Below are positions 25,345 to 40,605 of a stretch of 64,000 bases of DNA, piece by piece. A program made the translations under genes and the position numbers. Source of the stretch: Methanosarcina mazei S-6 (GTDB taxonomy: Archaea > Halobacteriota > Methanosarcinia > Methanosarcinales > Methanosarcinaceae); NCBI RefSeq assembly GCF_000970205.1, contig NZ_CP009512.1, positions 2,790,001 to 2,854,000 on the forward strand, written 5' to 3'. Under the pieces are notes generated by a model that saw only the letters and a list, made by a program, of their open reading frames with translations, did not search any database and was not told the DNA's origin. How positions within the stretch are numbered: the first letter of the stretch is position 1; every line of letters starts with the position of its first letter.

Positions 25345-25458
25345 ATTTTTCACATTATTGCATATTATATGTAATGGTTGTCACATGATTAATAAATATT
25401 ATTATATGTTAATCAGTTTTTTAGATTTTACTTCTTATTTTGTCTTTTATCTTACGAC

Positions 25459-26517
25459 TTAAATCATAATCCATAATCCAAAAAATATGAGCACAAGTCC
25501 ACTGATTTTTTTCAGATATATTTTATATGAACGGACCTGTTTAGGTAAAGTATAACCCCCTATCAAACCAACCCCAATAAAAGGAGTTAATACTCCGCCA
25601 CTGAAAGCAAGCAATAGAGCCAGATCATTAACAGTCCCGTTTGTAATAGTTTTACAATCTCGTTTGTAACAGTTTTGTTAAGCAGTACAGGGTATTGAGG
25701 CAGTGCAGGGAACTTTTACAAACGAAAACAATATCCCAAGAAAGAAAACTCCACCCAGAGTACCTGCATATTTCCTGGCAGAACTCTGAAAATAATTATC
25801 CAGAACTACAGGAGATTTCAAGACCCCCAGAAGGTTTAATCCAATGAGAATTACAATGACGCCTGTAACAAAAGAAAAGCTTTCCAAATCTGGAATTGAC
25901 TTTCGGAATGAGAGTAAACACAGGCCCAATAATAAGTAAGAACCCACCAGCCCTAATCCAAACACTGTTGCACGTACCATTCCACTTTTCGCACTATTGC
26001 TCGTCCCTGCAGTAAAGCTTAAAAGAAATCCAAGTATAGCCATCAGGCAGGGTGAAAAACCTGCAAAAAGTCCGAGAGAATAGGCAAATGGCAAATTCAG
26101 GTCTGTGTTTATATACTCGATTTCCTGTTCTTTTCTCGTTACCTCTTCTGTAGTATATTCAGTAATATTTTCCTCTTCCACAAGATATTCATCAATTAAA
26201 GTTTTTAGCTTTTCTTCAGTAATTTCTTCTTTGGGAATTTTTGTTTCATTGTTTATCACAATAGCCGGGACTTCAAGAAAACCATACTTGTTCCATTGAT
26301 TGAAACCGTCAGCAGTACTGGTTTCAATTCTTGTTATAACCATGTTCTCATATTGAGCTTCTATTCGATCGACAATAGGATCGGTTATTTCACAATCATG
26401 ACAACCTTTTTGATGGAAATACTGGATTGTGACAGGTTCTGCACAGGCCACCGGTATAAAAATAAGAGATAAATAAATTACGGCTAGTAAACTAATTGTA
26501 TGAGAACTACTTTTCAT
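25459..26517 (-). pseudogene. Frameshifted thioredoxin-CcdA fusion (cassette A copy)
   Basis: Residues 1-275 match the intact paralogue at 34317-35354 almost exactly, including the signal peptide, the GCHDC thioredoxin-type motif and the GFSPC membrane motif. At about 25645-25690 the copy has an insertion of some 22 bases that repeats nearby sequence (CTCGTTTGTAACAGT after CCCGTTTGTAATAGT) plus small indels, so the reading frame ends within VPCTA. The remaining C-terminal helices can be followed out of frame to a stop at 25459. The product would lack the second half of the CcdA channel and is probably inactive. Confidence 0.88.
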
Positions 26518-26576
26518 AAAATCCCAACAAGTATTCTTTTTATTTCACAAACCTGTGTATGCTAATGACGGGAAAC

Positions 26577-27161
26577 CTAATTATCTGAGTTCTGTTTGCG
26601 TTGTGACCATTTTATTCCTAAAACCAAAAGTACTAGTAGTATTCCAAAAATTATACTTCCTTTCAAAATAGGAAGGATGGGATAATCAAGTACAAGGTAG
26701 CGTACAAAAATGAAGACACATGCGATTACGTAGAAAACCAGCAATCTCACAGGATCTTTTTGATCTTCTTTCCTTTCGCCGTATATAATTTTTGACAATG
26801 CGCCCCCAGTAAATAATATAATCAAAATCCAGAATACTTGATCTATATTATAAACTAAAGAAGCATAGAGGTAAATAATATACAGCAGTATTGTAAGAAT
26901 TAGAAGGCGCATATTTTTTCGAATAGAGGAAAAGATGCTGATTTCTTCTTTTTCATGAGGCTCTACAGTTTTTTCTTTATCAAATTTGGATTCAAAAATA
27001 TGAATTATTATTGAGGAAATAGATGAGTTCAAAAGTTGTTCCTTTTTCCTATACCAGACCAAGAGTGAAAAAATTATTATTGTGAAAAAGAAAGCTAGAA
27101 TAAAAGTTGTCTGAGCTTCTATTAAGATGTATCCTTCCTTATATAAATAGATAAAAAAAAG
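26577..27161 (-). pseudogene. Six-helix membrane protein (cassette A copy) cut by IS66
   Basis: The C-terminal three quarters are nearly identical to the intact 216-residue protein at 35415-36065. Upstream of MVWYRKKEQ-like LVWYRKKEQ the frame stays open and homologous (KEGYILIEA against REGYIPLEM in the intact copy) until it meets the left end of the IS66 element at 27162, so the first helix and start codon are lost. An internal ATG-like start would yield a 161-residue remnant with four helices. Confidence 0.8.
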
Positions 27162-28697
27162 GTAACTATTCAGGCAGCCTTTTAAAGGCTACAATTTTTC
27201 CTCTTTTCGAGGAAAAATTGGATATAAATTGAATCCTATTTTGTTTCGTTATCATGCTTACACGTGAAGAGATTCTTGCTTTGTGTGCTTCAAACCCTGA
27301 AGTCATTGCTTACATTGTGAGTCTTGAAACTCAAATTAAAGAACTTACTGAAAGGTTGATAGCCTTAGAATCTCGTTTAAACCAAAACAGTCGTAACAGC
27401 AGTCGCCCTCCTTCTACTGATTTTTTTATCAAGGAGAAACCTAACCCCAAGAGTCTCCGTAAAAAGAGTGGCAAAAAACCTGGAGGTCAAGATGGTCATC
27501 CAGGAACAACTCTTGAAATGGTTGATCATCCTGAGTAGGTAATAGAACATTCTTTGAGTTGCTGCAAAGAATGTGGCCATACTCTTGAGAATGTTGAAGT
27601 TGAAGCCTATGAGAAAAGACAGGTCTTTGATATTCCCTCCCTGTAAATCTGATTGTTACAGAACACAAAAGTCAGATAAAGACCTGCCCTTACTGTGGAA
27701 AAATAAATAAAGCTGTTTTTCCTGAATCAGTTAAATATCCAGTTCAGTATGGTCCAAATATTTTAGCTTCAGCTATTTACTGTAAAAATCACCATTTTAT
27801 CCCCTATGAAAGAATTTCCGAATTTTTTGAGGACATAATGGGAATAAAAATCTGTCCTGCTACGATAATTAGAGCAGAAAGAGAATGTTTCCAGAATTTA
27901 GAGGAATTTGAAAACGTTATTAGAGAGAAATTAATGATTTCTCATGTTGTCCATTTTGATGAAACTGGTATGAAGATCGAAGGAAAACGACACTGGCTTC
28001 ATGTAGCTTCTAATGAGAAATACACCTGTTATTTACCTCACTCAAAAAGAGGAGCAGAAGCAATAGACGCTATGGGTATTCTTCCGGAGTTTAAGGGAGT
28101 AGCAGTTCACGACGGATGGAAACCTTACAACGTTTATGACTGTGATCATGCTCTCTGTAATGCTCATTTACAGAGAGAACTTACTGGAATTGAAGAGAAC
28201 TATAAACAGCAGTGGGCTAAAGAAATGAATGAATTGCTCACTGAGATGAAAAAGTATACCGATGAATGCAAGGATCAAGTCAAAGAACTGGATTTTGAGC
28301 AAATTAAAGCATTGGAAGAAAGGTTCGATGCTATCATAATTAAAGGAATTGAAGAAAATCCACAATCTCTAAATCCTGAAAAGAAAGGAAAACGTGGAAA
28401 AAATCCAAAAACAAAAGCAAGGAATCTGCTAGATAGGTTTATAGAACACAAAGAAAATATTCTGAGATTCCTGACAGATTTGAAAGTTCCGTTTGAGAAT
28501 AATCAAGCAGAAAGAGATATCAGGATGATGAAATTACAGCAGAAAATATCAGGAACTTTCAGAACTATACAAGGAGCGGAAGCTTTCTGCAGAATTAGAG
28601 CTTACATCTCTACAATTAGAAAGAACGGATTACCTGTTTTGGAGGGTATTATAGCGGCGCTCAAGAGAGCGCCGTTAACTATACCCTGAATAGTTAC
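27162..28697 (+). mobile_element. IS66-family insertion sequence, copy 1 (decayed)
   Basis: A 1536-bp element bounded by the inverted repeat GTAACTATTCAGG (27162-27174) and CCTGAATAGTTAC (28685-28697). It is flanked by an eight-base target duplication AAAAAAAG at 27154-27161 and 28698-28705, the length usual for IS66. A 5' region with two stem-loops (AGCC/GGCT and AATTTTTCCTC/GAGGAAAAATT) precedes the transposase gene; GGCGCTC/GAGCGCC forms a 3' hairpin. It sits in the cassette A membrane-protein gene. Confidence 0.92.
27254..28689 (+). pseudogene. IS66 transposase with conserved in-frame TAG and a frameshift
   Basis: Homologous along its length to the copy at 51352-52785. The first 94 codons end DHPE, followed by TAG at 27536-27538. 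The frame continues after the TAG exactly as in the other copy (VIEHSLSCCKECG), so the amber codon is ancestral. A two-base insertion at about 27633-27640 (CCCTCCCTG against CCTCCCG) then breaks the frame, which resumes to encode the DDE domain (FDETGMK, VHDGWKP, NNQAERDIRMMK). This copy is therefore inactive even with amber readthrough. Confidence 0.88.
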
Positions 28698-29041: not shown

Positions 29042-29818
29042 TCAAATAATAGCTATCATGGTTGTTTCTTTCCCTCCATCGGCAGTAACCTTTATTTGTT
29101 CCTCGGACATATTTTTATTAAGCAAATCTTCAAAGTTCATTGTAACTACTTCTGCTCCTTCAGGTATATCAAACACAAATTCGGAATCCTGAACTCCGGT
29201 GTTAATCTTTAAGTTTTGAATCTCGATTTCCATTCTTTGCTTACCCTGGTAAATTTCATACTTCAGGGGTATCCAGGTTTCTTCATCAACCCAGATATTA
29301 ATCTCGTCAATCAAAATGCTTTCTTCTCTTCCCTCTTTCGGTTTCGCTTCAAGGAAATATACAATTCTCCCATCAATCGTATCATTCCCATGCACAGAAA
29401 TATTATATTCACTTAAAGTATCGTTAAAGAGCTTGAAGTAATCAATTTCGAATTGATACTCTTCAGGAACTATTATTTTCTGGACAACATTTGTTTCGGG
29501 ATCGTACAACCACTCAATTTTTCCATCGTAAATCATTACACTTTCATTCTCTGTCCCTTTTGTAATTGTTTTCTTCATATTCGGCTTTTTGTACATGATA
29601 TCAAATTCACTTTCCTGTGTTTTCTCTCCTTCAAAATACGTCGTCATACAAAGAGTATATGAAGAATCCTCAATGCTGTTTTCTTTTTCCTGCATCTTTG
29701 CTGCAATTTCTTCTGCAATCAGTTCAGTGTCTTCTGCGTCCGATTCATTCATGCAACCAGATGTAAAAACAATACAAATTATCAAAAAAAGCATAGAAAC
29801 AATTTTCTTCTTTATCAT
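29042..29818 (-). CDS. LolA-like lipoprotein (cassette A)
   Basis: A 258-residue lipoprotein: signal peptide with lipobox FTSGC (lipidated Cys at about 22), then a LolA/outer-membrane-lipoprotein-sorting type fold. Recognisable segments are FDIMYKKPNMKKTITKGTEN, a YDGKIEWLYDPETN strand, and WVDEETWIPLKYEIY...QNLKINTGVQDSEFVFDIPEGAEVV. Archaea have no outer membrane, so the fold probably binds a lipidic or peptidic ligand at the outer face of the cytoplasmic membrane. The paralogue at 36062-36730 sits at the same place in cassette B. It follows the ABC ATPase gene by about 115 bases. A role in handling or neutralising the cassette peptide is inference. Confidence 0.78.
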   Translation of the reverse strand: MIKKKIVSMLFLIICIVFTSGCMNESDAEDTELIAEEIAAKMQEKENSIEDSSYTLCMTTYFEGEKTQESEFDIMYKKPNMKKTITKGTENESVMIYDGKIEWLYDPETNVVQKIIVPEEYQFEIDYFKLFNDTLSEYNISVHGNDTIDGRIVYFLEAKPKEGREESILIDEINIWVDEETWIPLKYEIYQGKQRMEIEIQNLKINTGVQDSEFVFDIPEGAEVVTMNFEDLLNKNMSEEQIKVTADGGKETTMIAII

Positions 29819-29935
29819 ATTCCTCATTCCAAATATTAATTAGCCTCAATTTGGCTCTGTAGAAAACCTATCTAAACCAGCTTCAAGAGGCTGAAGATAG
29901 ATAAGCAAAAATGAAGATGGACTGTCTACCCGAAA

Positions 29936-30868
29936 TTAAAATTTTATTCCGGTAGCATCAAAGAACGCATCTTCCAATGAGAGAGAGTTTTCTATAAGTT
30001 TGAAAACTTTGCCTCCACTTTCAACAATTAATCTGTTTATTTCTGGTTTGAAATCTATTCCGGAGTTTACATAAATATCCAGAGTATGTTCAGCTTTCAA
30101 TTCGGTTTTTACTACGAATTCCAGACTTTCAATTAAAGAAATCATTTCAGATGAGAGATTGTAGACCCCAACCGTAATAACCCCATTTGACTCTAAGTGG
30201 CGGATTTTTTCAATTGCACTTTCAGCAATAAGCTTGCCTTTATCCAGAATTCCGACATGGGTACAGATTTCCTGTATTTCCAGAAGGTTATGGGACGAAA
30301 GAAATACCGTGATTCCCTTGTTATTGCACTCACGAAGAATTTGCCGGATTTGCCGGATTCCAACAGGGTCAAGGCCGTTTGTGGGTTCATCAAGGATCAG
30401 TACTTTTGGATTATTCAAAAGAGCCTGCGCAATTCCCAGTCGTGTTTTCATACCATGGGAAAAATAGCCCACCCTTTTGAAAATTTCATTGCCAAGTCCA
30501 ACCTGGTCCAATAAAACCCTGGATTGTTCCACGCTTTCTTTTTTGCTCAGGCCTTTCAATCTGCCGTAATAGATCATGTGGCTTAAGGCAGTCCGTTCGT
30601 CGTAAAAACCGGAATCCTGGGGGACCAGTCCCAGAATCTGTTTAATCTTTCCTGATTCGGAAGAAAGGTCCATGCCATCAACAAAAACTTGCCCCTGCGT
30701 AGGTGTTGAAAGCCCTGAAAGTAATTTTATTGTAGTTGTTTTTCCGGCACCGTTCTGGCCCAAAAAACCATAGATACTCCCTTTTTCTACATTTAGGGAA
30801 AGATTTTCGAGAACAAAACGAGAGCCGTATTTTTTGTACAGGTTTTTGGTAGAAATAGCCGCGGAAAT
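29936..30868 (-). CDS. ABC-2 exporter ATPase (cassette A), no canonical start codon
   Basis: An ATPase with a complete ABC domain: Walker A GQNGAGKTT, Q-loop VPQDSGFYDERTALSHM, signature FSHGMKTRLG, Walker B LILDEPTNGLDP, and a C-terminal accessory domain. The first in-frame ATG falls inside Walker A, so it cannot be the true start. The frame is open and homologous upstream (ISTKNLYKKYGSRFVLENLSL) to the stop of the permease gene, where an AGGAGG site sits five to eight bases before ATA and ATT codons. No ATG, GTG or TTG is available in that stretch. I place the start at ATT (30868), giving 310 residues, normal for the family. Either a rare start is used or the start was lost by mutation. Confidence 0.82.
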   Translation of the reverse strand: MSAAISTKNLYKKYGSRFVLENLSLNVEKGSIYGFLGQNGAGKTTTIKLLSGLSTPTQGQVFVDGMDLSSESGKIKQILGLVPQDSGFYDERTALSHMIYYGRLKGLSKKESVEQSRVLLDQVGLGNEIFKRVGYFSHGMKTRLGIAQALLNNPKVLILDEPTNGLDPVGIRQIRQILRECNNKGITVFLSSHNLLEIQEICTHVGILDKGKLIAESAIEKIRHLESNGVITVGVYNLSSEMISLIESLEFVVKTELKAEHTLDIYVNSGIDFKPEINRLIVESGGKVFKLIENSLSLEDAFFDATGIKF

Positions 30869-31617
30869 TATAAATCCCTCCTTTTAATGGCCAGCAAACT
30901 CATGGATAAAAAGACCAGTATGTACAGGAACATTGAAAACAGGCTTTCAAAAGCCGTGAGGTATCCAGCTCCAACCGGGAAGCCTTTCATGAACTCCATA
31001 TTTTTAATCCCGTAAAAGAAGGGGGTGATATATTTCAGATAACTCTCATTTCCCTGTAAAATGAAAAATATCAAAATCCCAAGAAAGACCACGGACATTG
31101 TAAATGAAATTTTGTTGTTTGCAGACAATGTTGAGATGAATAAAAAAATACCTATGAAGCATCCCAGATAAAGGCTTGAGGAAATCCAGAATAAAATAAT
31201 ACTTTCGAACTGAAAGGCATTTCCTGTGGAATACTGATATATCAGGCTTATAAGTGCAATTCCGGAGGAAGCGGACATAAATACCAGAAATAGAAAGAAA
31301 AATTTCCCTAAAATAAAAGATGACCTCTGGACCTTGGAGAGAATGTATCTTACCGACCCTGTTTCAGTTTCGCTGCTTACGATATCAAAAGATGATATCA
31401 AAGTCATAAAAGGTCCGATAGACAATACTACAATATACGAAATCAAAATATACGGGATGCCCCCGGAATTCGAAAACAAAAAAGAGATGTAAGTACTGAA
31501 GCGCATTGCCAGAAAACAAAAAAAGATAAATATTCCACCAAAAAAGCATACATACTTGCTTTTTGAACCTCTCAATATTTCATCTTCCCCAATAATCCGT
31601 ATTTCCGAGAAATTCAT
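30868..31617 (-). CDS. ABC-2 exporter permease (cassette A)
   Basis: A protein of about 249 residues with six membrane helices, of the ABC2_membrane_5/NatB-like kind: the N-terminal EDEILRGSKSKY segment, helix one with FFCFLAMRF, a helix-loop with SSETETGSVRYILSKVQRSSFILGKFFFL (the usual loop before helix three in gliding/bacteriocin-type permeases), and further helices up to LLAIKRRDL. Start ATG 31617, with CAGGG nine bases upstream; a TTG three codons earlier overlaps the stop of the preceding gene. The 3' end contains the AGGAGG that serves the ATPase. Together they form an exporter likely to expel or give immunity to the cassette peptide. Confidence 0.83.
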   Translation of the reverse strand: MNFSEIRIIGEDEILRGSKSKYVCFFGGIFIFFCFLAMRFSTYISFLFSNSGGIPYILISYIVVLSIGPFMTLISSFDIVSSETETGSVRYILSKVQRSSFILGKFFFLFLVFMSASSGIALISLIYQYSTGNAFQFESIILFWISSSLYLGCFIGIFLFISTLSANNKISFTMSVVFLGILIFFILQGNESYLKYITPFFYGIKNMEFMKGFPVGAGYLTAFESLFSMFLYILVFLSMSLLAIKRRDL

Positions 31618-31622
31618 AATCT

Positions 31623-31991
31623 TCAACCCTGTTCACTTCTGCTCAGGCTGCAGGTAACAAATGCTCCGAAGGATCCGATCATCGAATAGAAAAAAAACAG
31701 AACGAGCAAAGATCCAATGAAAACAGATACAGCCACACCTCCGGATTGTAACACAAGCTTTCCATCGGAGGTAAGCAAAAAAGTTACAATCCAAGCAATA
31801 AGGTTGTACGTAAATATTGAAAGAAAAGCATATTTTACCGAGCCTTTGCCTATGATTTTACCAATTAATGTACCTACAATAATTGCACCTATAATCCCTC
31901 CGTATATCGGATCAAACTCTAAAAATTCAAAAAATTCGAATAATACAAGCCCAACCATTATCCCTATAAATAATAAATTTCCAGTTTTCAT
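31623..31991 (-). CDS. Four-helix small membrane protein (cassette A)
   Basis: A 122-residue membrane protein (start MKTGNLLFIG) with about four helices and glycine-rich segments (GGIIGAIIVGTLIGKIIGKGS), resembling small DUF5518-like archaeal membrane proteins. It lies between the secreted peptide and the ABC permease, with overlapping or touching reading frames, so it is cotranscribed with them. Many bacteriocin operons carry a small membrane protein beside the ABC pair for immunity; a similar role here is inference. Confidence 0.7.
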   Translation of the reverse strand: MKTGNLLFIGIMVGLVLFEFFEFLEFDPIYGGIIGAIIVGTLIGKIIGKGSVKYAFLSIFTYNLIAWIVTFLLTSDGKLVLQSGGVAVSVFIGSLLVLFFFYSMIGSFGAFVTCSLSRSEQG

Positions 31992-32062
31992 GATATCACA
32001 TTCAAAAAAATGCTGGGTTTTAAACCCAGCAAGATATAGACTTAACCTAACAAGATATAGAC

Positions 32063-32509
32063 TCAAGAGTACTGATCAATAAAGTCCTCCGCTTCATTCA
32101 GCAAATCAACCAGTTCATTGTACAGCCAGCTGGGAATCTGAGAAACCCAATCATATAAAATATCCCATATGGTGTTTAAAGCAAAATCTAAATAATCCAT
32201 TCCTCTTGATATATTATTGTTTCTGAATGCATCAGCAGCTTCAGAGAGTTCATCTTGAGCATCTTCAATTCGATCGTCATCGATAACCTCATCCAGCACC
32301 CAAAGTGCTGCAATCAGCCCATCACAGATATTTTCACCTAGCTCTCCAACTACTGATTTCGGTGTTATTTGACCGTTGCTATCAATAATGAATCCGTCTG
32401 CTAGTTCTTTCTCTGGCTGTGCCGTCACAGCTGGCACAAATGCCATGCTCACCAATAGCATTGAGGCAAGCAATACACTCAACATAAATTTTTGGTTTTT
32501 TATTATCAT
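32063..32509 (-). CDS. Secreted peptide/protein, cargo of cassette A, unknown family
   Basis: A 148-residue protein with a clear signal peptide (residues 1-30, cleavage after VTA). The mature part is acidic and mostly helical: EVIDDDRIEDAQDELSEAADAF, then an aromatic amphipathic C-terminal region (IWDILYDWVSQIPSWLYNELV) ending IDQYS. Only one cysteine is present. I do not recognise the family. The gene takes the same position, behind the same 690-base leader, as the halocin-C8-like precursor of cassette B, and is followed by a small membrane protein and an ABC exporter. This suggests a second secreted, possibly antimicrobial, product of a different type. The ATG follows AGGTAAAACAA. Confidence 0.7.
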   Translation of the reverse strand: MIIKNQKFMLSVLLASMLLVSMAFVPAVTAQPEKELADGFIIDSNGQITPKSVVGELGENICDGLIAALWVLDEVIDDDRIEDAQDELSEAADAFRNNNISRGMDYLDFALNTIWDILYDWVSQIPSWLYNELVDLLNEAEDFIDQYS

Positions 32510-32519
32510 TTGTTTTACC

Positions 32520-32790
32520 TCTTTTATTTTTGTTTAAGAGGCAAGGAACAAACCTTAAAATAGCTTTAAAGTAATCTGTTTCTTGCCTTTGGGCACGCAG
32601 GATTCAGGGGAGGGCTCAATCTTTACTGAATCCTGCAGAACATTCCCACATTCGAAAGATCCATAATCCTTTAAAAGTTTTATGTGTAAACTCTCAAACA
32701 ATCAGGCATAAGAGAAGAATACAAATCTGAAATAAGTTAAGAGAAAAATAGTTTGAGAACTTGCACAGAAGTTATAAATAATGTTACTTA
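32520..32790 (-). promoter_or_regulatory. Cassette A promoter and structured leader
   Basis: Read on the minus strand: a TATA box TATTTATAA (32772-32780), a 16-base half-site (32751-32766) just after it, its inverted partner at 32684-32699, then two stem-loops. Stem 2 pairs GCAGGATTCAG (32597-32607) with CTGAATCCTGC (32626-32636), eleven perfect pairs. Stem 1 pairs GGCAAG (32540-32545) with CTTGCC (32582-32587) and extends inward imperfectly. All are conserved at 37906-38146. The remainder up to 33199 is homologous to the cassette B spacer and has no gene. Confidence 0.7.
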
Positions 32791-33199
32791 CAGCCATCGA
32801 TTTGTGTCTGCATCTTCGATGTTTGGATATTCCTTTTAGGAAAAAATAGCAATATTTTTTAAGACACTATATTTCTCTATGGTAAGAATTGAGTAAAACT
32901 GAAATCTACAAGATTTTCTAGCTCTTAGTATCGCTACTAACTACTTTTTAGTTATAAAATGAGAAAAGCCGGCTCCAATAGGGAAAGTCGTAAAATAAGC
33001 AGTGTGATCAGTACAAGGGGAATCTCACTTTATTATTGAAGCTGCAATCAATATTTAATTCCTTATTCCAAAATAAGGCAGGTTAGAAGTTCAAGAAATT
33101 AGGAATTGAAAAAACAAAAGTATTCTGATACAAAAAGAAATTCTAGTAAACTTTTCTAAAAGCTTTTTAGTACACAATACCGTGAAGTGGATCAGATGC

Positions 33200-33757
33200 T
33201 TACTTGTATCTTTCTATCAAGTGTTTGTACGAAATGTTTATTTTATAGATTATATTTTTTCCTCTTTTTGTTTCCTTTATAAAACCAATTTCCTTAAGAT
33301 TTTTCATATACCAGCTAACTGTGCCCTTGGAAATTCCAATCTCACGCGCAAGAGCTACGTTTGTATTACACTTACCATTTAATATTTCTGAAATTATCCT
33401 TTTATTCGTTATGTTTTGAGAGGTAACAAGAATTTTCTTTTCCTTTTCACTATATGTTGAGTTTTGGAAACACCTTATTCTTCCGCCCTCCTTGTAAACT
33501 TCAATTTTATATTGAGTTTCCAGAACTTGTATGTGATACTGGACTGTCCTCCTGTTCAAGCCAGTATTTTTTGCAATGTCACTAAAACAAACTCCAGGGT
33601 TGGCTTCAATATAGGTATAAACGCTATCTCGGTTAGGATTATTAAGTACATTTGTTTTCCCTACAATTGTTGTTAAAAGGAAAAATAGCAAACAGACGAT
33701 AAGCTTCTTTTGAAGCTTAATGCTGGTAAAGACTAAATGTCTAGTTTTCGGTTTCAC
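33200..33757 (-). CDS. Double winged-helix regulator (cassette A), sensor segment deleted
   Basis: A protein of 185 residues if started at the GTG of 33757, preceded by GAGGAG; the same GTG and a similar site are conserved in cassette B. One membrane helix (about residues 17-33) is followed by two winged helix-turn-helix domains: NPGVCFSDIAKNTGLNRRTVQYHIQVLE (about 55-82) and NTNVALAREIGISKGTVSWYMKNLKEIG (about 133-160). Compared with the 254-residue paralogue at 38569-39333, about 69 residues are missing, namely the extracytoplasmic loop and the next membrane segments. It probably binds the shared promoter element but may no longer sense an outside signal. Confidence 0.8.
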   Translation of the reverse strand: MKPKTRHLVFTSIKLQKKLIVCLLFFLLTTIVGKTNVLNNPNRDSVYTYIEANPGVCFSDIAKNTGLNRRTVQYHIQVLETQYKIEVYKEGGRIRCFQNSTYSEKEKKILVTSQNITNKRIISEILNGKCNTNVALAREIGISKGTVSWYMKNLKEIGFIKETKRGKNIIYKINISYKHLIERYK

Positions 33758-33916
33758 TGACCGATTCTCCTCAAACCTTTTTCTATCCAGGGACTGACAT
33801 GTATTCTTTTTCGGCAGAAACAGGAGAATCTTCCTTATCAGAGCTTTCCAAGTATTCACCTCGGTTGAAACTTCAGGAATGTCTATCAGTCCTATGAATA
33901 TGAATAATACAAACAT
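33758..33916 (-). pseudogene. Remnant of a PPC-domain protein gene (cassette A)
   Basis: The minus strand retains the signal-peptide end (PVSAEKEYMSV, shifted frame) and the last codons (TFSLYQH, with TAG in place of a TAC codon) of the PPC-domain protein intact at 39293-39793; the middle is deleted. A reading frame running through it into the regulator gene is an artefact of the deletion. Confidence 0.65.
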
Positions 33917-34316
33917 CTTCCGGGTTTTTGTTATGTTAGTCAGTAATTTAAAAAGTCAAAGAATATAAGCTTTCCGACCAGAACCCCTAACAATCAGTAC
34001 CTTCTATCTTAATCTGTATTATTGATTTTTATGAGAGTTATTCATTGGTCATCGGTTAAGGAATTTTCTTGCCCGAAAGCTATCGATTTTGCACCAGAAG
34101 CCTGCCTTAAGTTTTGGCCTATTTACATGAAATCGATACCTTTCCCAGCCTATAATAGGATTAAAGATTTGACAACTGTTATGAAAGTGGAGGCAATTTA
34201 TCATGATTCTTCACTTAACCGAAGACGCATGAATAGATTATATATAAATTACACAAGTTTCATATGTTAATCAATTATTTAGATTTAACTTCGATGTTTT
34301 GTCTTCATTAGTTAAT
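33917..34316. other. Junction between cassettes A and B, no gene seen
   Basis: AT-rich 400-base spacer. The last 60 bases resemble the sequence downstream of the cassette A CcdA pseudogene (25385-25450), with a shared TATGTTAATCA stretch, so the duplicated unit extends past the CcdA stop. A short open frame at 34022-34270 lacks coding signs. Confidence 0.45.
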
Positions 34317-35354
34317 TCAGGCCATAATCCATAAACCCAGTAAAATAAGCACAAATCCACTAATTTTTTTTAGATACATTTTATATGAACGAATCTGCTT
34401 GGACAGAGTATAGCCCCCTATCATACCAACTCCAATAAAAGGTGTCAACACCCCTCCGCTGAAAGCAAGCAATAGAGCCAGATCATTAACAGTCCCGTTT
34501 GTAATAGTCTTGTTGAGCAGTACAAGGAGCATTGGAGCAGTGCAGGGAACTTTTACAAACGAAAACAATATCCCAAGAAAGAAAACTCCACCCAGAGTAC
34601 CTGCATATTTCCTGGCAGAACTCTGAAAATAATTATCCAGAACTACAGGAGATTTTAAGATCCCCAGAAGGTTTAACCCGATGAGAATTACAATGATGCC
34701 TGTAACAAAAGAAAAGCTTTCCAAATCTGGAATTGACTTTCGGAATGAGAGTAAACACAGGCCCAATAATAAGTAAGAACCCACCAGCCCTAATCCAAAC
34801 ACTGTTGCACGTACCATTCCACTTTTCGCACTATTGCTCGTCCCTGCAGTAAAGCTTAAAAGAAATCCAAGTATAGCCATCAGGCAGGGTGAAAAACCTG
34901 CAAAAAGTCCGAGAGAATAGGCAAATGGCAAATTCAGGTCTGTGTTTATATACTCGATTTCCTGTTCTTTTCTCGTTACCTCTTCTGTAGTATATTCAGT
35001 AATATTTTCCTCTTCCACAAGATATTCATCAATTAAAGTTTTTAGCTTTTCTTCAGTAATTTCTTCTTTGGGAATTTTTGTTTCATTGTTTATCACAATA
35101 GCCGGGACTTCAAGAAAACCATATTTATTCCATTGGTTGAAACCGTCAGCAGTACTGGTTTCAATTTTTGATATAACCATGTTCTCATATTGAGCTTCTA
35201 TTCGATCGACAATAGGATCAGTTATTTCACAATCATGACAACCTTTTTGATGGAAATACTGGATTGTGACAGGTTCTGCACAGGCCACCGGTATAAAAAT
35301 AAGAGATAAATAAATTACGGCTAGTAAACTAATTGTATGAGAACTACTTTTCAT
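34317..35354 (-). CDS. Thioredoxin-CcdA fusion, transmembrane thiol-disulfide carrier (cassette B)
   Basis: A 345-residue protein: signal peptide (1-26), an extracytoplasmic thioredoxin-like domain with C39-H-D-C42 (about 28-112) and the cis-proline region EVPAIVINN, a linker, and a six-helix CcdA/DsbD-type domain (about 140-345). The two channel cysteines are visible as GFSPC (C157) and VPCTAP (C271). Proteins of this class draw electrons from cytoplasmic thioredoxin and pass them to an outer thioredoxin partner; here the partner is fused. In this cassette the obvious client is the ten-cysteine peptide encoded upstream, whose disulfides would need reduction or reshuffling. It lies 60 bases after the six-helix protein and is the last gene of cassette B. 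Confidence 0.9.
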   Translation of the reverse strand: MKSSSHTISLLAVIYLSLIFIPVACAEPVTIQYFHQKGCHDCEITDPIVDRIEAQYENMVISKIETSTADGFNQWNKYGFLEVPAIVINNETKIPKEEITEEKLKTLIDEYLVEEENITEYTTEEVTRKEQEIEYINTDLNLPFAYSLGLFAGFSPCLMAILGFLLSFTAGTSNSAKSGMVRATVFGLGLVGSYLLLGLCLLSFRKSIPDLESFSFVTGIIVILIGLNLLGILKSPVVLDNYFQSSARKYAGTLGGVFFLGILFSFVKVPCTAPMLLVLLNKTITNGTVNDLALLLAFSGGVLTPFIGVGMIGGYTLSKQIRSYKMYLKKISGFVLILLGLWIMA

Positions 35355-35414
35355 AAAATCCCCAACAAGTATTCTTTTTATTTCACAAACCTGTGTATGC
35401 TAATGACAGGAAAC

Positions 35415-36065
35415 CTAATTATCTGAGTTCTGTTTGCGTTGTGACCATTTTATTCCTAAAACCAAAAGTACTAGTAGTATTCCAAAAATTATACTTCCTT
35501 TCAAAATAGGAAGGATGGGATAATCAAGTACAAGGTAGCGTACAAAAATGAAGACACATGCGATTACGTAGAAAACCAGCAATCTCACAGGATCTTTTTG
35601 ATCTTCTTTCCTTTCGCCGTATATAATTTTTGACAATGCGCCCCCAGTAAATAATATAATCAAAATCCAGAATACTTGATCTATATTATAAACTAAAGAA
35701 GCATAGAGGTAAATAATATACAGCAGTATTGTAAGAATTAGAAGGCGCATATTTTTTCGAATTGATGAGGAAATTTTAGTTTTTTCATCTTTGTTGATCT
35801 CTGTGATTTTTTCATCATGAGATTTTGAGCTCAAAATATGATCAATTATATTGAAAAAATTATTGTCATCAATCTGTTCCTTTTTTCTATACCAGACCAT
35901 AAAAAAGAAATGGACAGCTGTAACAAAGAGGGCAAGAATAAACACCCTTGACATCTCTAACGGAATATATCCTTCCCTAATCAGTAGCCCGATTATTAAA
36001 AAACTAACAAATAGTACTGGAAATGAACGTAATAATTCTTCTTTAACGATATGGTCTATATTCAT
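35415..36065 (-). CDS. Six-helix membrane protein of unknown function (cassette B)
   Basis: A 216-residue membrane protein. Two helices lie near the N-terminus (about 11-27 and 37-55), then a polar, charged loop of about 45 residues (WYRKKEQIDDNN...KDEKTKISSSIRKN), then four helices to SQRKQNSDN. I do not recognise the family. Its start overlaps the stop of the LolA-like gene (ATGA), so translation is coupled. The C-terminal two thirds are almost identical to the IS-disrupted copy in cassette A, while the loop and N-terminus differ, suggesting recent gene conversion of one part. An immunity role is possible but not shown by sequence. Confidence 0.82.
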   Translation of the reverse strand: MNIDHIVKEELLRSFPVLFVSFLIIGLLIREGYIPLEMSRVFILALFVTAVHFFFMVWYRKKEQIDDNNFFNIIDHILSSKSHDEKITEINKDEKTKISSSIRKNMRLLILTILLYIIYLYASLVYNIDQVFWILIILFTGGALSKIIYGERKEDQKDPVRLLVFYVIACVFIFVRYLVLDYPILPILKGSIIFGILLVLLVLGIKWSQRKQNSDN

Positions 36066-36730
36066 ATATTAATCACCTCAGTACCTTCTATAGGTTTAAA
36101 TTTAAATTCAGTATCTTTTATGCCTGAATTTATAGAATAATTCTCATATTCTAGTGTCATCAGAAGTTTGTCACCGTTATAACTTTGGATCTTTAACGGC
36201 ATCCAGATTTTGGGATCAATCCATAATAGACGACTCCAGCTTTCAGGCTCGTTTAGTTTACTCGAAATTACTTCTAGTTTATAAGTTTTGACTTCTCCTA
36301 AATATTCAATACCTTTGTAGTTTATAGTACAATTATCTGATATAGAATTAATAAATTCACTATATGTTGGAGTGGTCTGTATAGAATTCTGTGAAGTGTC
36401 ATTGATTAACCATGTTTTGTTTGTAATTGGATCATACTCCCATGTTAGTATCCCATCTGAGCCAATTGTTAAACATGTGGAAGAATTTACCCGATCGACT
36501 CTTTTATACATATTGGGATTTTTGATAAGAAAACTAGATTCAGTGATTATAGATTCATTTCCTATAAACATAGTCAATTTTTCATCATAAGATATATCAT
36601 ATATATCTTGTTGTTTATTTATTAAGTTCTTAGAGATCGATTCTGAGTTTGCTCTTTCCTCAAAACCACAATAAATAATTGCAAAAATAATTATTGTAAA
36701 AGCAAGGAATAAACTCTTTTTTGATGCCAT
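36062..36730 (-). CDS. LolA-like secreted protein (cassette B)
   Basis: A 222-residue protein paralogous to 29042-29818. An N-terminal hydrophobic segment (residues 6-21, ending YCGFEE) serves as signal or anchor; the single Cys in that stretch could be lipidated, though the lipobox (IIYCG) is weak. The fold markers are the same: SSFLIKNPNMYKRV, SDGILTWEYDPITNKTW and LWIDPKIWMPLKIQSYNG...YENYSINSGIKDTEFKFKP. GAGGAGA lies before the ATG. It is the first gene after the precursor and a terminator-like hairpin, and is coupled to the six-helix protein. It may bind the mature peptide at the cell surface; this is inference from position. Confidence 0.8.
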   Translation of the reverse strand: MASKKSLFLAFTIIIFAIIYCGFEERANSESISKNLINKQQDIYDISYDEKLTMFIGNESIITESSFLIKNPNMYKRVDRVNSSTCLTIGSDGILTWEYDPITNKTWLINDTSQNSIQTTPTYSEFINSISDNCTINYKGIEYLGEVKTYKLEVISSKLNEPESWSRLLWIDPKIWMPLKIQSYNGDKLLMTLEYENYSINSGIKDTEFKFKPIEGTEVINI

Positions 36731-36743
36731 ATTCTCTCCTCAT

Positions 36744-36770
36744 AAAAAATGAGAGGTGAAAACCTCTCAT
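36744..36770 (-). terminator. Hairpin plus T-run between precursor and LolA-like gene
   Basis: On the minus strand ATGAGAGGT (36770-36762) pairs perfectly with ACCTCTCAT (36757-36749) around a four-base loop and is followed directly by six Ts. It lies about 330 bases after the precursor stop and 19 bases before the LolA-like start. It may act as a partial terminator setting high precursor and low downstream expression. The rest of 36771-37098 has no gene. Confidence 0.6.
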
Positions 36771-37098
36771 AAACATTAAGTATTTTTCAGTTCAGACACA
36801 CAATTATCTGAAGCGCATGAAAAATATTAAGTTATATGTGTTTTTTCCGGAACTTGATTGTTAATAGATATCCATATGTTCCTAAATATTCGCAACTATT
36901 AATTCCAACAAGTAACCCTAATGATTCAACTTTGCCCACTAAATAAAACCAAGATAGAATTTATCTACATATTGAAAAGGACTAACAGTAGTAGTTCGAG
37001 GGTTTATTGAAGTGAACAGTTACTAATATTCATTTATTATGTGCATCAATTAGCAATTAGTTCTAATGTTATTGGATTTGAACCTTTTATGTGTTATG

Positions 37099-37875
37099 TT
37101 AATAACACATTGCCATCACATATATTATTTCAACACCCATGCAAACTGCAGCTGGTGAACAAGTTAGAAGCGAAGGCATATAGAAACAAGGCGAAAGCAC
37201 TGTTAAACAAACATCACATATTGATGGCGTTCCAGGAGGACAAACAATACCTAAAACTGAGCAAAGACAATCATCGATAAGCTCATTCGCAACACAGGTC
37301 CAGTAACCATCTTCTGTATTAGTGGTAAAGAAGTCTGCATTGGTATCTCCAATTATAGCCCCGTTGTCCACAACTTGTGTATTGAGAATTTCTCCATCGT
37401 CACCTACTCTATTTAAAGTTAATTCTTTTAATGTTTTATCTTCAAAAATTTGTGTAGCACTCATTACTTGTGCAGGTTTTTCACCACTCCATATTACAAA
37501 AACATTGGATATTTGGACAGAGATATTATCTTCAGCAATAACTTCTACTGGCAATATAACTCCTGTCACATAATCTGCAGACCCATCTTCCAGTGTTTTT
37601 TCTATGGAATAAACTTTAGCACCATCTTCAATTTGTTTCAAGTCTGTGGCAGAAGGACTTCCGGAAAGTTTTTGAACATCTTTAAGATTTAGGGCAAAAG
37701 CAATTTTTTCGTACTTTTCCATTCCTGTTATTTCTTTCTTTTCAACTCCACTTGCAGTGGAACCGCAAGGTGTTCCAGCCGGACACGCCATCGCAGGCGT
37801 AACCAGTATCATACCTATAACGAGCATTATCATGAAAAGCCCGCTGATTTTTCTAACTTTGCTGTTTAGTTTCAA
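37099..37875 (-). CDS. Halocin-C8-like archaeocin precursor with ten-cysteine C-terminal peptide
   Basis: A 258-residue secreted precursor. Residues 1-30 are a signal peptide (cleavage after PAMA). The mature N-domain (31-190) is soluble, beta-rich and begins CPAGTPCG. Residues 190-258 switch to a compact hydrophobic segment with exactly ten cysteines (C194, 203, 205, 212, 220, 223, 230, 239, 245, 257), including CLC, CDVC and IVCPPGTPSIC. Halocin C8 is a ten-cysteine, 76-residue peptide released from the C-terminus of a larger precursor whose N-part gives immunity; the architecture here is the same. It starts with TTG after AGAGGTGG. The leader is shared with cassette A; a LolA-like protein, a membrane protein and a thioredoxin-CcdA fusion follow. 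Activity and the processing site are unproven. Confidence 0.78.
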   Translation of the reverse strand: MKLNSKVRKISGLFMIMLVIGMILVTPAMACPAGTPCGSTASGVEKKEITGMEKYEKIAFALNLKDVQKLSGSPSATDLKQIEDGAKVYSIEKTLEDGSADYVTGVILPVEVIAEDNISVQISNVFVIWSGEKPAQVMSATQIFEDKTLKELTLNRVGDDGEILNTQVVDNGAIIGDTNADFFTTNTEDGYWTCVANELIDDCLCSVLGIVCPPGTPSICDVCLTVLSPCFYMPSLLTCSPAAVCMGVEIIYVMAMCY

Positions 37876-37889
37876 TTTATTCCACCTCT

Positions 37890-38150
37890 TTATTTTTGTT
37901 TAAGAGGCAAGGAACAAACCTTAAAATAGCTTTAAAGTAATTTGTTTCTTGCCTTTGGGCACGCAGGATTCAGGGGAGGGCTCAAACTTTGCTGAATCCT
38001 GCAGAACATTCCCACATTTGAAAACCCCATAATCCTTTAAAAGTTTTATGTGTAAACTCTCAAACAATCAGGCATAAGAGAAGAATACAAATCTGAAATA
38101 AATTAACAGAAAAATAGTTTGAGAGCTTACACAGAAGCTATAAATAATGT
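37890..38150 (-). promoter_or_regulatory. Cassette B promoter and structured leader
   Basis: Homologous to 32520-32790. TATA box TATTTATAG (38138-38146, minus strand). Half-sites GTTTGAGAGCTTACAC (38117-38132) and GTGTAAACTCTCAAAC (38050-38065) are inverted copies matching at 15 of 16 positions. Stem 2: GCAGGATTCAG (37963-37973) with CTGAATCCTGC (37992-38002). Stem 1: GGCAAG (37906-37911) with CTTGCC (37948-37953). The remaining spacer to 38568 has no gene but is conserved between cassettes. Confidence 0.7.
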
Positions 38151-38568
38151 TACTTACAGCCTGTCGATTTGTGTCTGCGTCTTCGATGTTTGGACATTCC
38201 TTTTAGAAAAAAATAGCAATATTTTTTAAGACATTACATTTCTCTATAGTGAGAATTAAGTAAGACTGAATTCTACAAGATTTTCTAGCCTTGAAATATT
38301 GCTACTAACTACTTTTTTAGTTATAAAATAGGAAAAATTAACTTCAAAGGTAAAGTCATAAAACACTGATCAGTTAAAGGGAATGTCATTCTATTACTGA
38401 AATCATAACAAGATTCAATTTCCTATTCCAAAAAGAAGGTAGTTTTGGGGTTTAAAAGATGATGAATTGAAAAACAAAAGTATTCTGACATAAAAAAAGA
38501 TGGCAGTAAATTGCGGTTAACTTTTCTAGATCCTTTTTGTATGTAACATATGCAGAGCAATTAAATAT

Positions 38569-39333
38569 TTACTTGTATCTTTCTATCAGGTTTTTGTACG
38601 AAATGTTTATTTTATAGATTATACTTCTTCCTCTTTTTGTTTCCTTTATAAGGCCTATTTCCTTAAGGTTTTTCATATACCAGCTAATCGTACCCCTTGA
38701 GACTCCAATTTCACGCGCAAGCTCCACGTTTGTATTGCATTTACCATTTAATATTTCTGAGATTATCCTTTGATTCGTTATGCTTTGAGAAGCCACAAGA
38801 ACTTTCTTTTCTCTTTCACCATACATGGAGTTATTCTGGAAATACCTTATTTTTCCACTGTCTTTATAAACATCAATTTTTTTTTGAGTTTCCAGAATTT
38901 GTATGTGATACTTAACCGTTCCCCTGTTCAAGCCCATACTTTTCGCAATATCACTAAAACAGACTCCAGGATTAGCTTTAATATAGGCATAAATGCTATC
39001 CCGGGCAGGATTGTCAAGTACGTTTACTCCATCTACAATTCGGAACCCGAGTATTGCGAAAATAAGCTTTGCAGGGTTCAGCAGTATATCTATTATCGAT
39101 AATACGTGCATCAGGGCCAGCCACAGGAGGAACTGCCAGTAAACTGTAAAGTCCTTAAGTTCTATTACTTCTTCTCCATTAATTGAAGCTCCAGATTGAT
39201 CGCTCGGAAAAGGACTTACAGTATATTCGGTAGCCTCGGCTGTTGTTGCTAGAATAAAAAATAGTAAACAGATGATAAGCTTTTTTTCAAGCTTAGTGCT
39301 GGTAAAGATTAAATGTGTAGTCCTCGGTTCCAC
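38569..39333 (-). CDS. Membrane-tethered double winged-helix regulator (cassette B)
   Basis: A 254-residue protein starting at the GTG of 39333 with GGGGA upstream, inside the end of the PPC gene; an ATG five codons earlier is possible. Layout: a first membrane helix (about 17-33), an external segment (TEYTVSPFPSDQSGAS...), one or two further helices (about 68-100), then two winged-helix domains, NPGVCFSDIAKSMGLNRGTVKYHIQILE and NTNVELAREIGVSRGTISWYMKNLKEIG, ending ISYKNLIERYK. This is a one-component sensor-regulator type frequent in Methanosarcina. Its position just upstream of the shared leader makes it the likely controller of the precursor, perhaps sensing the peptide or envelope state outside the cell. 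Confidence 0.83.
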   Translation of the reverse strand: MEPRTTHLIFTSTKLEKKLIICLLFFILATTAEATEYTVSPFPSDQSGASINGEEVIELKDFTVYWQFLLWLALMHVLSIIDILLNPAKLIFAILGFRIVDGVNVLDNPARDSIYAYIKANPGVCFSDIAKSMGLNRGTVKYHIQILETQKKIDVYKDSGKIRYFQNNSMYGEREKKVLVASQSITNQRIISEILNGKCNTNVELAREIGVSRGTISWYMKNLKEIGLIKETKRGRSIIYKINISYKNLIERYK

Positions 39334-39793
39334 TAACCGATTCCCCATAAACCTTGAACTCCCAGCTTCCCTGTTCTACATACCCCTGGGAAGGGTCGAT
39401 ACTGAAATGTATCCTGCCATTTACGCTTCCATCAGAATTATCACGGTAGGGTCCCAAGTTACTTCCCGATGGGGTAGAGATCCTAAGCGTAAGAGAATCA
39501 CTCGTATCTCCCCAGTTCAAGTCCACTTCAAGATAATTTATTCCTGAACCTACACTTACATAGTGAGTTTTAGTCTGTCCTTGAGTTATGTACTGGGTTG
39601 ACAGCACAGAGAAAATGGGGTTTTCTGCATCAGATGAATTTTCTACCCAAGGGCTAATAATATAATCTTTTCCGGCAGAAGTAAAAGTATCTTCTGTGTC
39701 AGAATTTACCGTGTATTCCTCTTCGGCTGAAACTGCAGGAATAAAAATCAGTCCCATAATTATACATATTATTAATATTTTCCATCTTTTCAT
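39293..39793 (-). CDS. Secreted PPC-domain protein (cassette B)
   Basis: A 166-residue protein: signal peptide (MKRWKILII... cleavage after VSA), then a bacterial pre-peptidase C-terminal (PPC) beta-sandwich with the usual YVSVGSGINYLEVDLNWGDTSDSLTLRISTPSGSNLGPY core and the final GSWEFKVYGESVSGTEDYTFNLY strand. Such domains are found on secreted peptidases and surface proteins; here the domain stands alone. The start at 39793 is preferred over one 20 codons upstream because the signal peptide begins there. It overlaps the regulator start by about 40 bases. The counterpart in cassette A is a remnant. A partner in peptide processing or binding is possible. Confidence 0.8.
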   Translation of the reverse strand: MKRWKILIICIIMGLIFIPAVSAEEEYTVNSDTEDTFTSAGKDYIISPWVENSSDAENPIFSVLSTQYITQGQTKTHYVSVGSGINYLEVDLNWGDTSDSLTLRISTPSGSNLGPYRDNSDGSVNGRIHFSIDPSQGYVEQGSWEFKVYGESVSGTEDYTFNLYQH

Positions 39794-39906
39794 ATTACTA
39801 CCCAAAAAAAGGTTAAAAGCCCGACTATATATAACTTCTGTGCAAATTCTCAAACAATCAGCATGCCTGCTTTTATGAAAGAATATTACAAAATCAAAAT
39901 CAAATT

Positions 39907-40605
39907 GCGGGCGGCCACCCCACCCTAAAGGATGGGGTATGCTTCGGGCCGCCCGCCCGGTTGTTTTGGTAGTTAGAAATCATCAAGTTTTCTTTGCTCG
40001 GATCTCATGAATCTATACAATTGAGACTCTTCACTCGGTTTTCCTTGCGATTCTTTAATGTAATGCTTAATTGTATCAGCAGTTACGTTTCCAACGGATC
40101 GATAGAACTTTCCATTTGACCATAGACTTCCACCCCAATACTGTTTTTTAAGATCAGGATGGAGCTTGAACAGTCTGTAAGAACTGCCTCCTTTCAAATA
40201 TTGAATTACCTCTGACAGAGAATTACTTGGATGGAATTCCAGAAACAAGTGAACATGATTGTCTACTACTTCCATTGCATGTATTTTGTAGCCATTTTTA
40301 GTGCAAATGTTACTGAAAATTAACTCGCAATCTTTTTTAATTCGCTTATTGTAGAATATACTGTATCGATACTTAGGCACCAACACGATGTGGTAGGTAA
40401 TCTGACCATAGCCATGGCTAAAACTGTGTAATTCCAACTGATATCACATCCTAGCCATAGATGGATGGCACCATCGGTGGCTATGGTGCCAAAAACAAGC
40501 TTATTTTACAAAAAAAGCAAGGATTAAGATATTTAAAGTGAAAAACGAAGAGGCGAGGGTTCACTTCATCCCCACCCTAAAGGATGGGGTATTCGTGACC
40601 CTCTG
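39907..40605 (-). mobile_element. IS200/IS605-type insertion sequence (TnpA only)
   Basis: The right end (39907-39956) folds as GCGGGCGGC pairing with GCCGCCCGC around an inner CCCCACCC/GGATGGGG hairpin. The left end (about 40553-40603) has a similar fold with GAGGGTTCAC and GTGACCCTC around the same inner hairpin. These are the subterminal palindromes recognised by Y1 transposases. No inverted repeats or target duplication are expected. A further GGCACCAT/ATGGTGCC hairpin lies before the transposase start. Exact ends are approximate. Confidence 0.82.
39973..40437 (-). CDS. tnpA: IS200-type Y1 transposase TnpA
   Basis: A 154-residue HUH-family transposase that cuts and joins single-stranded DNA. 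The HUH motif is NHVHLFLEF (about 61-69) and the catalytic tyrosine is in TIKHYIKESQG. Length and the opening HGYGQITYHIVLVPKYR match the IS200 group. The frame is intact, so the element may be active. It has no accompanying TnpB. It lies between the intact PPOX gene and cassette B. Confidence 0.94.
   Translation of the reverse strand: MELHSFSHGYGQITYHIVLVPKYRYSIFYNKRIKKDCELIFSNICTKNGYKIHAMEVVDNHVHLFLEFHPSNSLSEVIQYLKGGSSYRLFKLHPDLKKQYWGGSLWSNGKFYRSVGNVTADTIKHYIKESQGKPSEESQLYRFMRSEQRKLDDF

Follow-up and report, generated by a model that had tools for sequence, protein, structure and literature searches.

The window analysed here, a 64-kb stretch (positions 2,790,001-2,854,000) of the single-contig Methanosarcina mazei S-6 genome (4,142,816 bases), carries at 34317-39853 on the minus strand a module built around a secreted, cysteine-rich precursor protein. 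Comparison of this module with its relatives leads us to read the locus as one allele of an archaeocin island that is polymorphic and controlled by antisense RNA, and we put the probability of an archaeocin function at roughly 70%; it is from these comparisons that we infer killing, immunity, processing and disulfide formation.

In the order of transcription, the module consists of a PPC-like gene, a regulator gene, a 693-bp gap, the precursor gene, a LolA-like gene, a gene for a protein with six transmembrane (TM) segments, and a gene for a thioredoxin-CcdA (Trx-CcdA) fusion. A sequence-only reading of this DNA had placed the open reading frames on one strand; each of them was confirmed, and the strand is the minus strand. 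The secreted 258-residue precursor that it reported, with ten cysteines in its final 65 residues, is present at 37099-37875 (minus strand). That inventory was right in its genes but overlooked the small RNA sRNA162 on the precursor leader and a second, partly decayed module at 25.4-33.9 kb.

A precursor family with exchangeable cores

The archaeocin-type precursor can be divided into a signal peptide (residues 1-30), a C-x5-C element with a pro-domain (residues 31-187), and a C-terminal core of type T1 (residues 188-258, ~37102-37314). The core cysteines are C194, C203, C205, C212, C220, C223, C230, C239, C245, and C257, and two more, C31 and C37, lie right behind the signal peptide. Because all 12 cysteines are invariant across five T1 proteins at identities down to ~38-44%, this pattern is not a product of chance. 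Translation from a TTG codon, 42 nt upstream of an internal ATG, is backed by a AGAGGTGG ribosome site, by the conservation of residues 2-14 in relatives, and by a distance of 74-77 nt from the antisense RNA, as in genes that start with ATG. The signal peptide (MKLNSKVRKISG...) has no twin arginine and is Sec-like. No Pfam family matched the precursor or the six-TM protein above cut-off, a Foldseek search of the precursor model against the PDB returned nothing below an E value of 0.001, and a sequence search of the PDB gave no significant match.

When 186 genomes from the order were searched in six frames, relatives of the precursor turned up in 25 genomes with a single-protein query and in 39 genomes with an alignment query, the weakest relatives in the 39-genome set resting mainly on the signal region. 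The family occurs mostly in Methanosarcinales. The signal peptide, the cysteine element directly after it, and the pro-domain are constant throughout the family, while the C-terminal cysteine-rich core is variable. T1 cores were present in the window, in G156 and G153, on a Methanoperedens contig, and in a Methanomicrobiales metagenome-assembled genome (locus L153); two weak T1-core matches (L024 and L025) were dropped on account of short frames and an unconvincing cysteine pattern. Cores belonging to TIGR04449, the halocin C8 domain, were found in 5 of 21 family members and at 10 places in 9 genomes. When core profiles were compared with each other, using reversed profiles as controls, the C8 cores grouped with types C8b, T5, and T7 (85-96%) and T3 grouped with T4; the T1 core matched no other core type. 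One mark of polymorphic toxin-immunity systems, an N-terminal part that stays constant while the C-terminal domains are exchanged, was found in this family.

Partner genes matched to the core

Neighbour genes matched to the type of the C-terminal domain, a further mark of polymorphic toxins, were found as well. In raw counts that ignore common ancestry, the T1 precursor was followed by LolA-like and six-TM genes in 5/5 loci (the six-TM gene being split by a frameshift in L043), the C8b precursor by a three-TM protein (c8) in 5/5, the T3 precursor by a small-TM protein (c10) and an exported protein (c5) in 6/6, the T4 precursor by c5 in 7/7 and by a small-TM protein (c12) in 5/7, and the T5 precursor by c17 in 4/4. 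The Trx-CcdA gene, on the other hand, is common to most core types. In the window, these partners are encoded on the minus strand at 36062-36730 (LolA-like exported protein, PF17131 above cut-off), 35415-36065 (six-TM membrane protein; AlphaFold predicted template modelling score 0.36, with no meaningful structural match), and 34317-35354 (fusion of a thioredoxin with a DsbD_TM/CcdA domain, the redox partner).

Linkage between the redox gene and the precursor was assessed from independent searches, although one of the 23 linked precursors came from neighbourhood reading: by raw count, 23 of the 27 Trx-CcdA genes of the family lie no more than 5 kb from a precursor. The four exceptions are the partly decayed second copy in the window, a locus (L113) in which the precursor signal is reduced to 17 residues, and two members of a 72%-identical branch with no precursor nearby. 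The CxxC motif of the thioredoxin and two CcdA cysteines were invariant in 24/24 proteins. Gene order extends to the Methanomicrobiales locus L153, where the precursor, LolA-like, six-TM, and Trx-CcdA genes follow one another, tightly packed, at 44, 33, 41, and 45% identity; the LolA-like and six-TM genes overlap by 4 bp both there and in the window. The link to the downstream genes that the sequence-only reading had proposed thus held up in the neighbourhood survey, being kept across genera and orders.

Core-matched partners beside a shared redox gene would be the pattern expected of core-specific immunity genes together with a common folding gene. By this reasoning, candidate immunity is most likely better placed with the core-specific LolA-like and six-TM genes than with the N-terminal part of the precursor.

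Probable exchange at a fixed chromosomal site

Methanosarcina modules are mostly located between rpS6e/IF2 and the PNPox gene, and G155 has an intact precursor at another site. The distance between the site markers is 269 bp in G171 and 342 bp in G162, where the site is empty, and ~1.3 and 1.7 kb in two other genomes. An IS200-type transposase gene (Y1_Tnp, E 4.2e-37) at 39973-40437 borders the module in the window, between it and the PNPox flank. A plasmid search gave no match.

We compared synonymous divergence (dS) between the window and two close T1 relatives. It was 0.12-0.13 for the precursor, 0.21 for the LolA-like gene, 0.39-0.42 for the six-TM gene, 0.42-0.73 for Trx-CcdA, and at least 0.9 for the regulator, while the flanking pdxT, pdxS, IF2, and rpS6e genes ranged from 0.42 to 1.06. 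Since the dS of the precursor is far below that of the flanks, the simplest reading would be that the precursor moved between species later than its flanks did; the alternative is constraint on synonymous sites. The ratio of nonsynonymous to synonymous divergence was 0.9-1.1 for the core, with wide intervals, versus 0.05-0.34 in its neighbours.

Antisense RNA at the precursor leader

Some 220-300 bp 5' of Methanosarcina precursors are conserved whatever the core type. In the window, this leader and promoter region (37876-38095, minus strand) is overlain by sRNA162 on the opposite strand (37951-38140, plus strand; Rfam RF02792, 214.8 bits, E 4.9e-45), and the same conserved stretch precedes a 148-amino-acid secreted protein at 32063, with a second RNA of the family, sRNA171-like, antisense to its leader (32585-32774, plus strand; 204.7 bits). 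Both matches are full length and far exceed the gathering score of 78 for the covariance model. Almost all Methanosarcina precursors have a copy of sRNA162 in antisense orientation at their leader, the T4 precursor of G155 being one exception, and in intact genes the start codon is mostly 74-77 nt from the 5' end of the RNA.

In M. mazei, sRNA162 was described in the 739-bp gap between MM2441, the regulator gene, and MM2442, a conserved protein of unknown function, and a duplicate, sRNA171, was also reported (Jaeger et al. 2012, PMC3510493). Two contacts made in vitro were reported, one between the MM2442 leader and the first 65 nt of the RNA and one between the MM2440-41 mRNA and the linker of the RNA (PMC3510493). 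The window shares with that locus the order of its genes, a regulator that starts at an overlapping GTG, an antisense RNA before the precursor gene, and a nearby duplicate RNA. Because gene order, regulator start, and duplicate RNA all agree, the window precursor is the apparent counterpart of MM2442. The difference is one of interpretation, in that Jaeger et al. (2012) drew no link to antimicrobial peptides and left MM2442 without a function; our literature searches found no later work assigning one. The annotated MM2442 start lacks an upstream ribosome site (PMC3510493), a puzzle that the TTG start, with its AGAGGTGG motif and the conserved residues after it, would remove.

Overexpression of sRNA162 affects methyltransferase genes, and the locus was read as a carbon switch (PMC3510493). 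Of the explanations that compete with our own, the one that survives best, although we consider it unlikely, is that sRNA162 is primarily such a carbon-source switch (methanol/methylamines), acting in trans on the regulator, with its overlap of the precursor leader incidental. The published methyltransferase effects and the in vitro binding of the MM2440-41 mRNA speak for it. Against it, RNAs of this family lie antisense at 74-77 nt from the starts of precursors with a variety of core types and of further exported proteins. In a shuffle test, pairing of the linker with the ribosome site of the regulator was of moderate strength in the window (z -2.4), and several relatives showed none. Given the near-constant antisense position and the absence of linker pairing from those relatives, it is the cis arrangement that has been conserved.

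The genome to which the window belongs contains a third sRNA162-like element (L208, G000:C1:3536578-3536778; 78.4 bits), which lies antisense to a leader preceding the gene for a secreted C39-like peptidase (PF13529, E 1.5e-10); another such element is L200 in G151. This peptidase, which would be controlled in the same way, is a candidate for the maturation protease. Further sRNA162-like elements, some of them under the cut-off, precede an M12-type metallopeptidase, PPC-like proteins, and uncharacterised exported proteins (L206, L207, L209, L201, and L158), which suggests that these elements control a wider regulon of secreted proteins.

A proposed function and its alternatives

The archaeocin reading could work as follows. 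A Sec-exported precursor would carry a disulfide-rich, hydrophobic T1 peptide at its C-terminus, presumably freed by a protease, and the freed core would kill or inhibit related archaea. The Trx-CcdA protein at the cell surface may help form or proofread the disulfides of the peptide, while the LolA-like and six-TM proteins would most likely protect the producer, by sequestration and membrane protection. The membrane-tethered regulator and sRNA162 would set the timing of peptide production, and species would swap core-plus-immunity cassettes at a fixed site while retaining the leader, signal peptide, regulator, and redox gene.

Several points weigh against this reading. For the T1 core, no relative with a known function was detected, and AlphaFold modelled it with a predicted local distance difference test score of ~22-32 over most of its length, which makes the core model unusable (the pro-domain was moderate, with block scores mostly of 63-87). 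The pairing and linkage counts given above are uncorrected for ancestry, and the pairing is not exclusive, as six-TM and LolA-like genes also stand beside other core types. Furthermore, CcdA proteins normally carry reductant, so that a disulfide-forming role is not obvious and isomerisation is likelier than oxidation for the Trx-CcdA protein.

Alternatively, the precursor might be a cysteine-rich surface or signalling protein, such as a redox or metal sensor, an adhesion protein, or a pheromone, that has folding and export partners of its own. Such a role would suit the linked Trx-CcdA gene and membrane-tethered regulator, the many roles that cysteine-rich secreted proteins serve, and the presence of sRNA162-type leaders before exported peptidases and PPC-like proteins. 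We nevertheless regard it as improbable: the exchange of cores and cassettes, partners that match the cores, and the presence of empty sites and relics suit conflict genes better than housekeeping genes, and siblings of the precursor carry a known antimicrobial domain.

We give even odds to a broader, joint claim under the archaeocin reading, namely that core-plus-immunity cassettes are exchanged behind one leader, that the ancestral role of sRNA162 is cis-antisense control of an archaeocin (MM2442) rather than a carbon switch, and that T1 represents a new class of antimicrobial peptide in archaea. If the archaeocin reading is right, a function would be given to what appears to be a target of a much-studied regulatory RNA of archaea, the duplication and variability of the sRNA162 locus would be explained in part, and immunity genes would be predicted. 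Archaeal peptide warfare would also become testable in M. mazei, for which deletion and plasmid-expression strains were made. The comparisons also show halocin C8 cores to be one of several interchangeable cargoes outside haloarchaea. A survey by Makarova et al. (mBio, 2019), the principal earlier one on antimicrobial peptides of archaea, reportedly expanded the halocin C8 family; our literature searches, which did not cover that survey, the main uncertainty as to novelty, found no characterised archaeocin from a methanogen.

Relation to halocin C8

The sequence-only reading had called the core halocin-C8-like. Its module of secreted precursor, pro-part, cysteine-rich core, and redox and membrane partners stood, but the halocin C8 nature of the core did not: neither the window protein nor its genome had a match to the TIGR04449 model above cut-off, and the profile comparison that had been proposed as a check gave 0.6% for T1 versus C8 cores, against 0.2% for the reversed control. 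Because profile comparison leaves the T1 core without a relative, it is not a halocin C8 by sequence. For the core, this is the outcome that the sequence-only reading had named as refuting its proposal.

Over the rest of the precursor, the relationship is different. Over residues 1-173, the full T1 precursor profile matched that of the C8-type precursors (probability 97.5, E 5.9e-12). With the signal removed, the pro-domains of T1 and T4 matched at 90% (reversed control, 2.7%) and those of T4 and two C8 groups at 86% and 67%, while the direct T1-C8 match was weak (20% and 1.6%); these comparisons used trimmed regions, since heterogeneous C8 N-termini gave one-column artefact matches even to reversed profiles. 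As T4 links both while the direct match is weak, the T1-C8 pro-domain homology appears to be transitive rather than direct, and the link to halocin C8 would run via the precursor family and not via the T1 core.

Halocin C8 itself is a known antimicrobial that is freed from the C-terminus of its precursor (PMC11509114, PMC12893001). Like its precursor ProC8, which includes the immunity protein HalI, the T1 precursor is secreted and joins an N-terminal pro-part to a C-terminal hydrophobic peptide with ten cysteines, and true C8 cores occur in T1 paralogues behind the same leader. The T1 core differs in its lack of sequence kinship, the T1 signal in being Sec-like where ProC8 is exported by Tat (PMC11509114), and the T1 operon in having Trx-CcdA, LolA-like, and six-TM partners together with antisense sRNA162. 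That T1 is simply a diverged C8 peptide, with an N-terminal immunity protein like HalI, is very unlikely: the ten C-terminal cysteines, the precursor profile match, and the TIGR04449 cores of same-site paralogues favour it, against which stand a core match of 0.6% where C8 reaches 85-96% with T5, T7, and C8b, the Sec-like signal, and the existence of core-specific partner genes.

In halocin-C8-type loci elsewhere in the phylum (L135, L138, and L146), two proteins, one with four TM segments (c33) and one with twelve (c13), are encoded 3' of the precursor; next to HalI, they are candidates for a role in immunity or export.

Upstream genes and the second module

The regulator, the MM2441 counterpart, is a membrane-tethered double winged-helix protein (HVO_0163_N and HTH_24 domains, two TM segments) encoded at 38569-39333 on the minus strand, in an open reading frame that extends to 39348; its start is probably a GTG inside that frame, near 39333, in agreement with the published start of MM2441. 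The PPC-like secreted protein, the MM2440 counterpart (39293-39793 or 39293-39853, minus strand), matched PF04151 with an E value of 2.4e-4, and its gene adjoins the regulator in distant loci too. Pfam supported the regulator, LolA-like, and DsbD_TM assignments, and the PPC and Thioredoxin_3 matches were significant yet below curated cut-offs. All the neighbour genes in the sequence-only reading were thus present, with the amendments that the regulator likely starts further in and that the PPC match falls below its cut-off.

The second module is likewise on the minus strand, apart from its antisense RNA. It has a second regulator copy at 33200-33916 (32499-33653 being an 84% repeat of 37865-39025) and, in the precursor slot, the 148-amino-acid secreted protein (32063-32509), which has one cysteine, falls outside the cysteine-rich class, had no Pfam match, and starts 75 nt from the antisense RNA. 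Its partners at 29042-32066 are a small membrane protein, an ATP-binding cassette (ABC) permease of the ABC-2 type, an ABC ATPase, and a LolA-like lipoprotein. The module recurs in L123, and its membrane/ABC part in L052 and L158; it may represent a further class of peptide whose immunity is of the ABC type. At 25404-27061 lies a decayed duplicate of the Trx-CcdA and six-TM genes, a 92.5% repeat of 34262-35899, which adjoins an IS66 element. Two IS66-type transposases, at 27254-28689 and 51352-52785, each overlap a PYLIS_5 element (RF02512), and for this reason each is probably one gene in which an in-frame UAG is read as pyrrolysine.

Comparison with known systems

Among immunity systems, that of lantibiotics combines LanI lipoproteins with LanFEG ABC transporters. 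The window resembles it in having an exported, lipid-binding-like protein and a multi-TM protein beside the peptide gene, and an ABC transporter in the second module; the likeness drawn is one of gene arrangement, and no lanthionine enzymes were seen here. Polymorphic toxin-immunity systems, whether colicin-like or of the contact-dependent inhibition (CDI)/Rhs-like kind, share with the precursor family a constant N-terminal part, a swapped C-terminal part, matched neighbours, relics, and exchange at one site. They differ in that no delivery machine was seen here and in their cargo, which consists of enzymatic toxin domains, whereas the cores of this family are small disulfide-rich peptides.

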